Assembly: GCA_021813595.1 (NCBI GenBank)
Contig: JAKAKF010000056.1
Location: 1 to 7,707, forward strand
DNA: 7,707 nucleotides
Reading direction: 5' to 3'
DNA from: a bacterium
GTDB taxonomy: Bacteria; SZUA-79; Acidulodesulfobacterales; Acidulodesulfobacteraceae
Below, one piece after another: positions 3,995-7,697 of this stretch (its first letter is position 1; every line of letters begins with the position of its first letter). The position numbers were made by a program, and so were the translations under genes. Below the pieces are notes generated by a model, which saw nothing but the letters and a program-made list of their open reading frames with translations, was not told where the DNA came from and did not search any database.

Positions 3995-4044
3995 TGGTGG
4001 CGGTGCAGGGACTTGAACCCCGGACACTACGGATATGAGCCGTA
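3995..4044 (-). pseudogene. tRNA 3' half with CAT anticodon and CCA end (right copy)
   Basis: On the minus strand the sequence has a perfect five-pair anticodon stem (TACGG at 4044-4040, CCGTA at 4032-4028) around the loop CTCATAT, giving anticodon CAT (methionine or lysidine-modified isoleucine tRNA). A variable region, a T-arm (CGGGG, TTCAAGT, CCCTG, with one G-U pair), the acceptor strand CACCGCC, discriminator A and encoded CCA (3997-3995) follow. The matching 5' acceptor strand GGCGGTG and a D-arm are absent upstream on this strand, where the DNA is AT-rich spacer. It is therefore a 3' half, not a functional tRNA, as left when an element integrates into a tRNA gene. It shares 26 identical bases plus nine more with the copy at 1782-1825. 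Confidence 0.75.
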
Positions 4045-4216
4045 AAGTATTTTGAACTAACCTATTTATTTAATTAAATAATTTGTATTATAAAAAATAG
4101 GCTGCATGCGGAATTGTATTTCTTATAATTTTTAATCTTATAATTATAATTAATAATATTTTGACTAATATTACCAACTAATTTAAATTTTATTATTACA
4201 TGAAAATTTGCAATTA

Positions 4217-4267: not shown

Positions 4268-4681
4268 TTATTTTTTATCAATATAATTCAAAGCTGTTTT
4301 ATTAATTTCGGTTATGAAACCTTCCGCTTCCATTAAGGAGGCTAAAACTTCATCCTTATTAAATTTTACAAAATCTCCATAATCGCCTGTTTGTCTGTTT
4401 TCAAAAGCGTTACTTAGAATTTTGTAATATTTTTTATCAAGTATGCCGCTATGGATAAATGCTTTGTTGAATTCGCCTTTTAGTGCGCCGTGATTCTTCG
4501 TCGAAAAATCTCTCGTCAACATTAATGCTTCGACTGAATAAAAACAAGCGTAATAAATCCTGTTAACCGCTAAAATTAAATGATTTAATTCTAAAGCCTC
4601 TTTAGCTTCTATTATAGTTTCATTAGCCCTGTCTATTCTGTATTTTATTAATGGAAATTTATCTTTTTCGGGCAAAGTCAT
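4268..4681 (-). CDS. HEPN-domain protein, partner of MNT nucleotidyltransferase
   Basis: A 137-residue all-helical protein of the HEPN family that pairs with minimal nucleotidyltransferases. Family signatures are the helix LAVNRIYYACFYSVEALMLT (37-56), KNHGALKGEFNK (62-73), the IHSGILD turn (76-82) and FENRQTGDYGDF (93-104). The RNase motif RX4-6H of many HEPN toxins is not evident; R96 is followed by QTGDYGDF, the form common in the UPF0332-like branch, so RNase activity cannot be assumed. Its ATG overlaps the stop of the upstream nucleotidyltransferase gene as ATGA, which means translational coupling. In related pairs the HEPN protein is the toxin and the MNT protein inactivates it by nucleotide transfer; applying this here is inference. 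The gene is followed by a likely terminator. Confidence 0.87.
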   Translation of the reverse strand: MTLPEKDKFPLIKYRIDRANETIIEAKEALELNHLILAVNRIYYACFYSVEALMLTRDFSTKNHGALKGEFNKAFIHSGILDKKYYKILSNAFENRQTGDYGDFVKFNKDEVLASLMEAEGFITEINKTALNYIDKK

Positions 4682-5148
4682 AACTCTATACCTTCTTTTC
4701 TAATATTTCTATATAATGGAACGACTCCGGCAAGATTTGTTTCGACGTAGCTTTTATTTTTCACTTGAAAATCGATAGAAACGCAATATTTTACCTGAAT
4801 ATCCGTTAATATGTCTAATATTTCATTTTTAACTTTTTTATCAACCGGCAAGAAATAAAGTTTTTCAAGTTCTTCAAAAGATATACTTTTGTTTATTTGG
4901 TGATTATCTTTAATAATAATCATTAAATCTATATCGGAATATTCTTTGTAATCCCCTCTTGCCTTAGAGCCGTAAAGTATTATTTCGGCATCCGGATATT
5001 TTTCTTTAATCTTTTCTTTTAATTCAGAAAGAGCTTTTTTCTCCATGGGCGAAAGATAATTTGAAAAGTAAACCGGTAAGGTATTACTTTCTATATTTTT
5101 ATTGTTTTTAACTGTTTTTTTATCGGTTTTATATGATCTATTTTCCAT
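4678..5148 (-). CDS. Minimal nucleotidyltransferase (MNT) protein, first gene of the MNT/HEPN pair
   Basis: A 156-residue protein of the polymerase-beta-like nucleotidyltransferase fold. The active-site signature is intact: G60-S61, R64-G65-D66, D72-I-D74 (YGSKARGDYKEYSDIDLM), and a third acidic residue at D126 in CVSIDFQV. Enzymes of this group transfer nucleotides to a partner protein; with a HEPN neighbour the likely role is antitoxin. Residues 1-30 are rich in lysine, asparagine and serine and lie outside the usual domain, which begins near residue 35 at MEKKALSELKEKI. No Shine-Dalgarno stands before either ATG. An extended -10 box ends six bases before the first ATG, which would fit a leaderless message starting at residue 1; ATG codon 35 (5046) is the alternative start. 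It overlaps the HEPN gene by four bases. Confidence 0.88.
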   Translation of the reverse strand: MENRSYKTDKKTVKNNKNIESNTLPVYFSNYLSPMEKKALSELKEKIKEKYPDAEIILYGSKARGDYKEYSDIDLMIIIKDNHQINKSISFEELEKLYFLPVDKKVKNEILDILTDIQVKYCVSIDFQVKNKSYVETNLAGVVPLYRNIRKEGIEL

Positions 5149-5646: not shown

Positions 5647-5955
5647 TTAGTCATTTTTTATTCCGTCCTTAGTTTTACTGAAATCAATCCGCATATCGTA
5701 GCCTATGGCGGCGGCATATTCTATCAAAGTGGATATGTTGGGCATGATTTTGGAATTAGCGCTTTCGAGCCTCGAGATGTTGCTTTTGGCGGTATTCATC
5801 CTTTCGGCTATATCTTCCTGCGTAAGCCCTTCAGATAACCTTAAGCTTATGAGCTTAGATTTAATATCGTACAAAGGCTTCAGCCTGTCATAATCTAGTT
5901 TGACTTCTGTATTTTTTAAAGCTTTATCTTTAAATTCTTTAAATGTCGGCCTCAT
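5647..5955 (-). CDS. XRE-family helix-turn-helix antitoxin (HigA-like)
   Basis: A 102-residue DNA-binding protein, the likely antitoxin and autorepressor of the operon. The helix-turn-helix reads LTQEDIAERMNTAKSNISRL (residues 44-63), within a Cro/C1-type fold (about 30-86), with a short tail YDMRIDFSKTKDGIKND. The N-terminal arm (1-28) may contact the toxin. The start is ATG 5955: AAGGAGGT lies six bases upstream, inside the end of the toxin gene, and the toxin TAA overlaps this ATG by one base (TAATG), giving coupled translation. A longer open frame reaching 6069 only reads through the toxin gene in another frame. The 18-bp inverted repeat at 6284-6301 is the probable binding site. Confidence 0.92.
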   Translation of the reverse strand: MRPTFKEFKDKALKNTEVKLDYDRLKPLYDIKSKLISLRLSEGLTQEDIAERMNTAKSNISRLESANSKIMPNISTLIEYAAAIGYDMRIDFSKTKDGIKND

Positions 5956-6275
5956 TATTTTACCTCCTTCATTCTTTTTAAAGCAGTTTCTATTTCTTTC
6001 TTCGGGGTCTTTTGGGTTTTCTTGATAAAAGAATGTAATATTATTATCTCGTTTTTTAAAGCAAAGCAAAATAGCGACCTTCCTATGCCTTCCCTGCCCT
6101 TTGCCCTGATTTCGAATAATCCGCGTCCTATGGCTTTGGTATGGGGGCTTCCCAAATCAGCGCCGAATTTTTCTATCAGTTCTGCTATATGCAAAAAATC
6201 GGCTAATATACCCGGCGGGAATTTATAGGTTTCTCCTTCAACTTTTTTATCGAAAAATGTTATTTTCCACGCCAT
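5955..6275 (-). CDS. HigB / phage Gp49-like toxin of the RelE superfamily
   Basis: A 106-residue protein of the Gp49-like HigB group, predicted to cut mRNA at the ribosome and so halt translation. Family motifs are seen in order: LADFLHIAELIEKFGADLG (24-42), GRGLFEIRAKGREGIGRSLF (50-69, the basic core strand region) and LHSFIKKTQKTPKKEIETA (80-98). Length and motifs match the family, so it looks intact. It is the first gene of the operon, the order typical of HigBA and opposite to RelBE. The ATG at 6275 (MAWKITFFDKK) is the natural family start but has no Shine-Dalgarno sequence; the promoter -10 box ends six bases before it, so the message may be leaderless. Weak toxin initiation followed by a strong ribosome site for the antitoxin would favour antitoxin excess. 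Confidence 0.91.
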   Translation of the reverse strand: MAWKITFFDKKVEGETYKFPPGILADFLHIAELIEKFGADLGSPHTKAIGRGLFEIRAKGREGIGRSLFCFALKNEIIILHSFIKKTQKTPKKEIETALKRMKEVK

Positions 6276-6281
6276 AAGGTT

Positions 6282-6310
6282 ATGTTATCATTTATGATAA
6301 CTAAAGTCAA
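6282..6310 (-). promoter_or_regulatory. Promoter of the toxin-antitoxin operon
   Basis: The minus strand has TTGACT (6310-6305), a 17-base spacer, and TAACAT (6287-6282). The -35 box is one base off consensus and the -10 box two. Transcription would start at or next to the toxin ATG (6275). The inverted repeat at 6284-6301 fills the spacer and overlaps the -10 box. TATCAT within the spacer is an alternative -10 box but lacks a good -35. Confidence 0.6.
6284..6301. promoter_or_regulatory. Operator palindrome of the toxin-antitoxin operon
   Basis: GTTATCAT-TT-ATGATAAC: perfect eight-base arms with a two-base centre. It lies between the -35 and -10 boxes of the operon promoter and overlaps the latter, which is where a XRE antitoxin dimer would block RNA polymerase. 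Binding by the neighbouring antitoxin is inferred from position and symmetry. Confidence 0.7.
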
Positions 6311-6361
6311 ATAAAGATTAATTTAAAAATATCCATGAGAGAAAAGCAGAGAAAAAAATAC

Positions 6362-6390
6362 TTGACATCATATTTATCTTTTGAAATAAT
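6362..6390 (+). promoter_or_regulatory. Strong plus-strand sigma70-type promoter
   Basis: A consensus -35 TTGACA (6362-6367), a 17-base spacer and AATAAT (6385-6390), one base from the consensus -10. It is among the best promoters in the window, points away from the toxin-antitoxin operon, and has no coding frame for 400 bases downstream. Transcription would begin near 6397 and run into the folded region at 6427-6605. Confidence 0.6.
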
Positions 6391-6396
6391 AAAAAT

Positions 6397-6610
6397 AATT
6401 AATTATTTCTCGATAGTAATCGACTTCCGGCGATGCCATTTCTTGTCTGAGTTAAAGAAATGTTATTGCCCATTAAGGATAATATCGAAAGTATTATCTG
6501 GGTAATAATTAGCTCTATGCCGGCAAATTTTAACTCTGCTGAAAGATTTTAGATTCTAAACCTAAAATCTTTAAAAAGGAATACTACTGAAGATTTATTC
6601 CTTTTATCTT
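6397..6610 (+). ncRNA. Candidate structured small RNA (unknown family)
   Basis: This interval has its own promoter, no open frame of note, and dense complementarity. The outer stem CCGGCG (6427-6432) pairs with TGCCGG (6518-6523). Inside it are hairpin CATTTCTT/AAGAAATG (6437-6444 with 6455-6462) and, directly abutting, a long hairpin TTATTGCCC/GGGTAATAA (6463-6471 with 6500-6508) continued by GATAATA/TATTATC (6478-6484 with 6492-6498). Together they form a three-way junction. An 11-pair hairpin (6542-6552 with 6562-6572) and a nine-pair hairpin running into T-rich sequence (6574-6605) follow. I do not recognise a known RNA family. The alternatives are an untranslated leader for the small gene at 6793, or a miniature inverted-repeat element. 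Coordinates are estimated from the promoter and the last hairpin. Confidence 0.4.
6574..6609 (+). terminator. Possible intrinsic terminator of the candidate RNA
   Basis: AAAAGGAAT (6574-6582) pairs with ATTCCTTTT (6597-6605) across a 14-base loop, and the next bases (ATCTTT) are T-rich. The stem is A/T-heavy and the T tract broken by ATC, so it is a weak terminator; the 11-pair hairpin just before it (6542-6572) may help. Confidence 0.35.
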
Positions 6611-6621
6611 TGCGGCTCGAA

Positions 6622-6640
6622 GAATATTTTTAAAATATTC
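6622..6640. repeat. 19-bp palindrome
   Basis: GAATATTTT (6622-6630), a single T, then AAAATATTC (6632-6640): perfect nine-base arms. It lies between the candidate RNA and the small gene. It may be a protein-binding site or an RNA hairpin; its A/T composition means chance is possible. The rest of 6641-6780 shows no gene, only a TATAAT at 6709-6714 without a -35 box and a T-rich run before the ribosome site at 6779-6786. Confidence 0.4.
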
Positions 6641-6792
6641 AAAAAACACCGCGTCCATTCTACTCTACGGACAGTTTCGTCCAAAAAATAATTCTTTAAA
6701 TCAATTCATATAATTTTAACCAAAAGGTCTTTAATTAACCGCTATTTTTGCGTTTATTTAACGGCCTTTATTTATTTTAAGGAGGTGTTATT

Positions 6793-6960
6793 ATGTATGA
6801 AGAAATTTACCAAATTTTAAGCCTATATAAAAAGGTTCAACTTTGTCTAATTAACGAAAAAGGACGCATAATCTTAAATTCCTTTAATTGCTTAAATGAT
6901 ATCGATTTTAATATGCTAAAAAGACGAAATTCCGATATTCTGTGTTTTAAGGCAAGGTAG
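6793..6960 (+). CDS. Small hypothetical protein (55 residues)
   Basis: Starts MYEEIYQILSLYKKVQLCLI and ends DILCFKAR. A near-perfect Shine-Dalgarno AAGGAGGT (6779-6786) stands six bases before the ATG, the strongest argument that it is translated. No signal peptide or membrane helix is seen. The middle (VQLCLINEKGRIILNS, about residues 15-30) looks like a beta hairpin of the kind found at the start of small PAS-like or roadblock-like folds, but this is only an impression. Two of its three cysteines lie in CLI (18) and NC (33) contexts with no metal motif. It may be transcribed from 6362 through the structured leader, or from a weak -10 at 6709. Function is unknown; it could also be a regulatory leader peptide or the intact start of a truncated gene. 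Confidence 0.5.
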   Translation: MYEEIYQILSLYKKVQLCLINEKGRIILNSFNCLNDIDFNMLKRRNSDILCFKAR

Positions 6961-7002
6961 ATTTTTATAGCCTTAAACCCCTTATATTTCCTTATCTTCC
7001 CC

Positions 7003-7034
7003 CAGACCTCTCTTTTCGCAAAAAGAGAGGTCTG
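7003..7034. repeat. Perfect inverted repeat, 14-bp stem with tetraloop
   Basis: CAGACCTCTCTTTT (7003-7016) and AAAAGAGAGGTCTG (7021-7034) are exact complements around CGCA. Neither strand has a T run after the hairpin, so it is not a textbook terminator. It lies 43 bases past the small gene and may stabilise the 3' end of its message, stop transcription by a T-less route, or be a copy of a dispersed palindromic repeat. Confidence 0.8.
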
Positions 7035-7115
7035 AAGACTGCAAGTGTAGTAATTACCTGCATTTAAAGTTAATTTTTGATGAAATTATTTTTATAAATT
7101 TCTACCCGGCTGAAT

Positions 7116-7238
7116 TACATTTTGCGCCGAAAGGCGGTAAATGTAGTTGCCGATTCTATATATCTGGCCCACCGCGGGAAGCGGTAAATGTGGCGCATAA
7201 CGCGCTTTTGCATTTAAGAAATTACCGGCCTGATATAG
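7116..7238. repeat. Folded repeat region of unknown function
   Basis: A hairpin at 7116-7145 has TACATTT/AAATGTA, a 2x2 mismatch, CGCC/GGCG and a GAAA tetraloop. A second motif has ACCGC (7171-7175) pairing with GCGGT (7181-7185). GCGGTAAATGT occurs twice in direct orientation (7135-7144 region and 7181-7191), and TGCATTTAA twice (near 7060 and 7209). GCGC/GCGC (7193-7196 with 7202-7205) nests inside AAATG/CATTT (7186-7190 with 7211-7215). CTATATATCTGGCC (7156-7169) and GGCCTGATATAG (7227-7238) enclose most of it as imperfect inverted repeats. It contains no gene and is more G+C-rich than its surroundings. It could be a structured RNA, a recombination site or a replication or transfer origin; nothing seen decides between these. 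Confidence 0.4.
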
Positions 7239-7308
7239 ATTAAGGTAGTATAAAAATAATCTCGTTTAAAAAATTATAGATAAAGTTTGACGGGAGAGTT
7301 GCGTTTTC

Positions 7309-7359
7309 AAAGCGGTATTGCAAGGCTTATTTAATTTATCTTGCAATGCCGCTTTTTTT
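7309..7359 (+). terminator. Strong intrinsic terminator
   Basis: AAAGCGGTATTGCAAG (7309-7324) pairs with CTTGCAATGCCGCTTT (7340-7355), 16 pairs including one G-U, across a 15-base A/T-rich loop, and runs directly into seven T residues (7353-7359). It ends about 39 bases before the next ATG, so it either closes transcription of the 6793-7300 region or acts as an attenuator for the gene at 7398. No promoter is obvious between it and that gene. Confidence 0.8.
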
Positions 7360-7397
7360 ATTTAATTAAACTCATAAACATAAAGGAGGTGATTAAA

Positions 7398-7697
7398 ATG
7401 GGGAAACTATTAAATTATTTTGAAAACAATCCGGAAAAGTTTTTACCCTTAAGACATCAAAACACTCTTAAAACACAGGCGCAGCATAAACAAATAATCC
7501 GTCAATTTATAAAATACGCCGAAAATCTTGGGATTTGCCATACCAAAAAACTTAACGAAAACGTAATTGCAAAATACATCAAGGAAAGGCTTTCAAAAAA
7601 ATCCCCGGAAACCAAAAGGAAACATAAAATTTGGTTATTTATAATGTATAAAAAATTAAATAAAAGGGAGGTTAGAGATTATGTCAAAAATCTATGA
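7398..7697 (+). CDS. Small protein resembling a tyrosine-recombinase SAM-like core-binding domain
   Basis: A 99-residue protein from ATG 7398, chosen because AAAGGAGGTGATT (7383-7394) lies just upstream; the open frame reaches further back only into the terminator hairpin. The pattern RHQNTLKTQAQHKQIIRQFI, then KYAENLGI, VIAKYIKERL, KSPETKRKHKIWLFIMYKKL (about residues 19-88) is that of the all-helical N-terminal DNA-binding half of phage-type integrases: a four-helix bundle in which the TxxxY-like helix is followed by an S/P-ET-RKHK helix. The catalytic half with its Arg-His-Arg-Tyr residues is missing: a stop follows at 7695. The next gene starts inside it at 7681, so this is either a compact standalone DNA-binding protein in an operon or an integrase split in two. 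The domain call is by eye only. Confidence 0.55.
   Translation: MGKLLNYFENNPEKFLPLRHQNTLKTQAQHKQIIRQFIKYAENLGICHTKKLNENVIAKYIKERLSKKSPETKRKHKIWLFIMYKKLNKREVRDYVKNL

Follow-up and report, generated by a model that had tools for sequence, protein, structure and literature searches.

Sequence comparison established the fold, the conservation, the promoter association and the variety of downstream genes described below, and on this basis the interval at 6362-6610 of the window (the whole stretch of 7,707 nucleotides analysed here) contains a genuine structured RNA, which belongs to a family absent from Rfam 15. This pseudoknotted RNA of ~110 nt would form the 5′ terminus of mRNAs transcribed from mobile elements of a single small phylum and probably controls the transcription of the genes behind it. 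It is likely a cis-acting leader of some kind; for processive antitermination as its mechanism, which is suggested by analogy with known systems, we estimate a probability of roughly 0.4.

Fold and covariation of the RNA

From 5′ to 3′ the RNA consists of P1, the letters GAC, the outer stem P2 (CCGGC with GCCGG), the letters AUGC, P3 (eight pairs) and P4 (five pairs), followed by AUNAGCUUA, the 3′ side of P2 and finally the strand complementary to the P3 loop (Table 1). The unpaired letters GAC (after P1), AUGC (before P3) and AUNAGCUUA (after P4) are kept in most of the diverged copies.

Table 1. Features of the RNA and of the unit that carries it, in window coordinates
Feature	Position	Strand	Remarks
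Extended -10 promoter TTGACA-17-AATAAT	6362..6390	+	11/12 matches
RNA core, match to model R1	6401..6541	+	100.4 bits; model built without the window
P1 hairpin, TCGAT/ATCGA	6410..6423	+	double-sided changes in 3/5 pairs (17-copy alignment)
P2 outer stem, 6427-6431 with 6519-6523	6427..6523	+	double-sided changes in 3/5 pairs
P3 hairpin, 6437-6444 with 6455-6462	6437..6462	+	double-sided changes in 7/8 pairs
P4, 6463-6467 with 6504-6508, plus window-particular expansion	6463..6508	+	double-sided changes in 1/5 pairs
Pseudoknot, P3 loop 6449-6454 with 6531-6536	6449..6536	+	pairing kept with other letters in L061, L062, L063, L064
Two later hairpins	6542-6572 and 6574-6605	+	predicted pairs compared in five leaders
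RepB-type primase gene remnant, large internal deletion	6793..6960	+	ribosome site 6780-6786
Strong hairpin with T-run, terminator-like	7310..7362	+	-20.0 kcal/mol (-21.3 in G026)
99-aa ORF	7398..7697	+	faint similarity to integrase N-terminal SAM domains (at best 17.7 bits against a cut-off of 22.3)

The initial annotation had proposed a candidate new RNA in this interval, with the same promoter, an outer stem, a hairpin of 16 pairs and two further hairpins. The promoter was found as described. Five pairs of the outer stem are confirmed, while the sixth, G6432-T6518, is absent from the family structure used; the 16-pair hairpin at 6463-6508 exists in the sequence, but only the five pairs of P4 are familial, the rest being an expansion that is peculiar to the window among the aligned copies. 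The proposed structure was incomplete, as it missed the pseudoknot. Both later hairpins are present as well, with double-sided changes in three of 14 predicted pairs, although two of the five leaders fail to form several of these pairs; the last one, said to run into T-rich DNA, was not among the terminators, none of which was listed on the + strand in 6200-7100.

That the structure exceeds chance, as had been claimed, is borne out by the + strand of 6397-6610, which folds at -55.1 kcal/mol (z -5.39; none of 200 shuffles as low). The - strand reaches a z-score of -3.70, likewise with 0/200 shuffles as low. The free minimum-energy fold of this interval lacks P2, and this stem was accepted because copies were compared rather than from that fold. 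A 56-aa frame overlapping the RNA (6335-6505) matches no Pfam family.

In the 17-copy alignment, which was fitted to the nested structure (the pseudoknot being left out of the models), all 390 cells pair and 14 of the 23 nested pairs show double-sided changes, compared with a mean of 6.1 in shuffles (0/500 reaching 14) and 2-6 in slid versions. An unfitted MAFFT alignment of eight copies has 97.2% of its cells paired, which was matched by 4/500 shuffles, and a covariation score matched by 1/500; its four pairs changed on both sides are not unusual (123/500). In that same alignment 89.1% of the pseudoknot cells pair, with no double-sided change. Among diverged copies the pseudoknot is rebuilt with other letters: the common pairing GAGTTA/TAACTC is replaced by TCGGAGT/ACTCCGA, TTGGAGT/ACTCCAA, GAGCA/TGCTC, TTTTTTGG/CCAAAAAA or GCTGG/CCAGC. 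The loop-tail pairing of each copy with itself beats re-dealt pairings, only 4 of 20,000 of which reach it, in a test on seven copies hand-chosen as diverged representatives, two of them close to each other. The fitted data contain ten G-U cells and no A-C cells, and thus favour the + strand as the folded one. Chance structure was rejected on the shuffle z-score, the double-sided changes in the 17 copies and the rebuilt pseudoknots. The proposal of a candidate new RNA is supported because homologous copies with compensatory changes exist, and no Rfam family falls on the RNA.

Family extent, promoter and neighbouring genes

Model R1, built from eight copies with the window left out, detects the window at E 6.8e-23. 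In a DNA search of 99 genomes, E <1e-5 was reached, among the matches listed, only in the genus and family of the window. On 30 genomes of the phylum (one family, six genera) R1 gave 16 matches in 11 genomes at E ≤0.1; these and the window form model R2, which on the same genomes gave 19 matches in 13 genomes at E ≤0.01, plus ten weaker rows at E ≤1. One weaker row was accepted (G023, E 0.037, nearly identical to the copy in G014) and the other nine (E 0.18-0.99) were left out of the count, as was a fragment at the end of G005:C4. The accepted copies number 21, window included. In another family search two of 19 rows (E 0.68 and 2.7) were excluded before counting. The searched assembly of the window's own genome ends at about window base 4085, so the absence of a match there is uninformative. 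Among 386 genomes, 12 match R2 at E ≤0.01, all within the window's family, and the 356 from outside the phylum gave no match at this threshold under filters strict enough to lose the G027 copy found in the phylum search. Several copies per genome occur in G005, G004, G002, G015 and G019, and the contigs G004:C80 and G005:C63 each carry two copies, upstream of different genes.

Rfam 15 gave three matches to the window at E ≤5, none in 6362-6610, and six to 18 related loci at E ≤1, none on the RNA. No match to 6280-7400 was returned by blastn against phage and plasmid records. Two pattern matches in viral contigs were taken as chance, neither having a model match at E ≤1, and the recombinase ORF was not found in those contigs. 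A pattern scan of the genome collection returned 26 stretches, of which 11 were strongly confirmed by the model; these lie on nine contigs that all equal contigs of the set in length, and none was counted as new. The other 15 were taken as chance. Searches of open-licence papers listed no title describing the RNA. A strongly diverged likely copy was seen by eye in L031 (6814-6958, G005:C63), with the same promoter, P1, P2, a P3 of ten pairs and a pseudoknot of seven (GGGATTA/TAATCCC), and without P4; it was listed by neither model and stands outside the 21.

In the window the promoter has its -35 hexamer at 6362-6367 and its -10 hexamer, preceded by TG, at 6385-6390, with a 17 nt spacer. A promoter-like site of at least 10/12 lies upstream of 17 of the 18 copies scored (all of the 21 except L034:11314, at a contig end, L105 and L106), the exception being L107 with 9/12. 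From the end of the -10 to the model start the distance is 9-20 nt, and exactly 11 nt in 8/18. Random AT-rich 75-mers from twelve loci satisfy the same criterion in 2.8% of 20,000 cases; since the copies are related, the promoter figure represents conservation and not independent events.

A same-strand gene was found downstream of 18 of the 21 copies, at a distance from the RNA of 180-1163 nt and with intervening DNA that differs between gene types. Ten copies precede the tyrosine-recombinase type (seven Pfam-scanned, four above the cut-off and three only below it, and three by eye), three an SSB (in one case just the beginning of the gene, recognised by eye where the contig ends), three a RepB-type primase (one being the window's remnant) and two a DUF6094 methylase after a small ORF. 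For the remaining three, no same-strand gene was found: L059 and L105 lie at contig ends, and L107 faces a convergent integrase. ERF, SNF2-type helicase, actin-like, Rep3 and Replicase proteins near some copies indicate several plasmid-like or integrative elements. Since the downstream genes differ between copies, the near-constant site directly 3′ of the promoter identifies, as read from these loci, a promoter-plus-leader cassette of mobile-element operons. Recombinase-type leaders are long (750-1160 nt; L063 8671-9423, L104 2705-3540) and share non-coding stretches by eye, e.g. CTGCAT..CCCAGTTA..TGCGG, where further structured RNA is possible.

The tiny gene with a ribosome site that the initial annotation placed behind the RNA has that site, but proved to be a primase remnant. 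Its first ~47 residues align to the primases of G026, G008 and G015, and the rest of the frame is sequence lying 3′ of the primase gene in G026 and G015; by this alignment the start of a primase gene coding for ~250 aa has been fused to the DNA that follows the gene, pointing to an internal deletion of several hundred bases. RepB_primase and RepB_primase_C domains exceed the Pfam cut-off in all three intact relatives, and the remnant has no match. Further 3′, G015 retains the arms of the terminator-like hairpin around a larger loop, and such a hairpin lies between the primase gene and the recombinase ORFs in all three genomes aligned. About 38 nt separate its T-run from the next start codon, that of the 99-aa ORF, which is kept in G026 (88%) and G015 (91%); in G026 its counterpart is followed by a 330-aa recombinase-type ORF (L039:5165-6157, above the Pfam cut-off).

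Between the primase remnant and the recombinase ORF, positions 6961-7300 make up another non-coding stretch that is conserved and highly structured. It contains a perfect hairpin with covariation at 7003-7034 and, near 7155-7240, a cross-shaped part; five of its 110 predicted pairs have double-sided changes (three sequences). An origin, an attachment site or a second regulatory RNA are candidates. On the other side of the RNA lie toxin-antitoxin-like pairs, HEPN with nucleotidyltransferase at 4268-5148 and Gp49-type with helix-turn-helix at 5647-6275, as cargo beside the element's RNA. The latter agrees with the toxin-antitoxin neighbour claimed earlier, but is not a constant one, as a 175-189-aa ORF occupies its place in G026 and G015. 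A tRNA-like piece on the - strand at 3999-4064 (Rfam tRNA 23.3 bits, below the cut-off of 29; no ARAGORN gene) and a shorter repeat of it, seen by eye at 1780-1808, are possible scars of tRNA-site integration.

Candidate roles of the RNA

In the explanation that we favour, transcription would start roughly 13 nt before P1, and the nascent RNA would form P1 and a domain of P2, P3 and P4 that the pseudoknot holds in place. The RNA would then act in cis on whatever lies behind it, most likely by altering polymerase so that it reads through the terminators of the operon (processive antitermination, put/canT-like). The covariation and the preference for the + strand are consistent with this, as are the near-constant place behind a promoter (17/18 against 2.8% in the control), the two copies on single contigs and the occurrence of one RNA before unrelated genes, which, given the distances and the differing DNA between, probably excludes masking of a ribosome site. 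The conserved hairpin ahead of the recombinase ORF fits antitermination because transcription from upstream must pass it, if no promoter lies between. Against it, 17 leader stretches hold no excess of terminators (nine on the coding strand versus eight on the other), in a scan that covered hairpins ≤45 nt and therefore missed the G015 form; the terminator at 7310 could be under the control of the structured region 6961-7300 alone; and the G008 primase relative has a promoter followed by a different folded leader (L022 1190-1500) without a match to the RNA. Among the three options of the initial annotation (free RNA, leader of the small gene, miniature element), a leader comes nearest, although not one dedicated to that gene, as the RNA also precedes SSB, methylase and recombinase genes.

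Other roles can be weighed on the same observations. The letters GAC, AUGC and AUNAGCUUA, kept in most of the diverged copies, would suit a riboswitch-like leader in which they form a pocket and binding of a ligand or protein sets operon transcription, but this is rather doubtful: no common expression platform follows the core, where the DNA varies with the type of gene, and the downstream genes share no metabolite. The position close to the 5′ end and the independence from the gene behind would also be expected of an RNase-resistant cap, whose pseudoknotted end might shield long mobile-element mRNAs; we consider such a stabiliser unlikely. A trans-acting small RNA, cut out or terminated after the core, targeting RNAs or protein and gaining dose from additional copies, could explain why conservation ends sharply just 3′ of the pseudoknot in the SSB, methylase and recombinase types. 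The window, however, has no terminator 3′ of the core, which also speaks against the free RNA proposed earlier, and with a same-strand gene behind 18 of 21 copies this role is quite unlikely.

Very improbable is a promoter or priming site on single-stranded DNA (Frpo/ssi type), active when the element enters as one strand. A primase is nearby, and SSB and methylase genes are described as typical of plasmid leading regions (PMC11541004), but by DNA folding the -35 hexamer has a mean pairing ≤0.44 on either strand in 16 of 18 copies, and the G-U cells without A-C cells point to the + strand. The pairing of the -10 varies between copies (0.18-0.96; 0.96 in the window). Several copies per genome might recall a miniature transposable element, an option raised by the initial annotation; compensatory changes, a constant promoter, the usual same-strand gene behind and a shared unit, from promoter to pseudoknot, whose ends are not inverted repeats by eye make it extremely improbable.

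Tentatively, the cassette could represent a new class of antitermination or polymerase-addressing RNA, pseudoknotted unlike put and spread across primase, SSB, methylase and recombinase operons of one phylum, in which one RNA would provide one control over the life-cycle operons of different elements. Whatever its mechanism, the family is missing from Rfam 15 and marks the operons of mobile elements in these genomes; the phylum in which it occurs has been little studied, and the natural divergence among its copies provides material at hand for testing the pseudoknot.

Comparison with known systems

Frpo/ssi units resemble the cassette in that both combine a promoter with a folded part and precede SSB and methylase genes, on plasmids in the case of Frpo/ssi; as described in PMC11541004, Frpo has its -10 and -35 inside the fold, whereas in the cassette the conserved structure follows the promoter, whose -35 is for the most part unpaired. 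The published RNAs found to share the arrangement of the cassette, put and canT, are antiterminators. The put RNA of HK022, a cis-acting antiterminator of ~70 nt, occurs twice per phage, behind both early promoters, with putL just downstream of PL (PMC9378689). Both put and the cassette RNA are structured RNAs of a mobile element, close behind promoters and with two copies on one element's contig. The folds differ, which counts against antitermination, as put has two stem-loops and the cassette RNA a hairpin and a three-way domain with a pseudoknot; the likeness was judged by fold, the sequence side consisting only of the blastn search of the window region against phage records, which gave no match. 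The criterion for put is terminator read-through together with contact to the polymerase zinc-binding domain. The antiterminator RNA canT of Tn916 lies downstream of the main promoter of this integrative element and was tested as a 452-bp fragment (PMC11658703). As in the cassette, the RNA is placed 3′ of a promoter; element terminators lie ahead of genes, as the terminator-like hairpin does before the recombinase ORF. The likeness is drawn from layout, not from sequence or fold, and in that account there is one canT per element. Few RNAs alter polymerase from within the nascent transcript, those named in PMC11658703 being put, EAR, canT and conAn2, and if antitermination is the correct reading, the cassette RNA would add one covariation-supported family more, with several copies per element.
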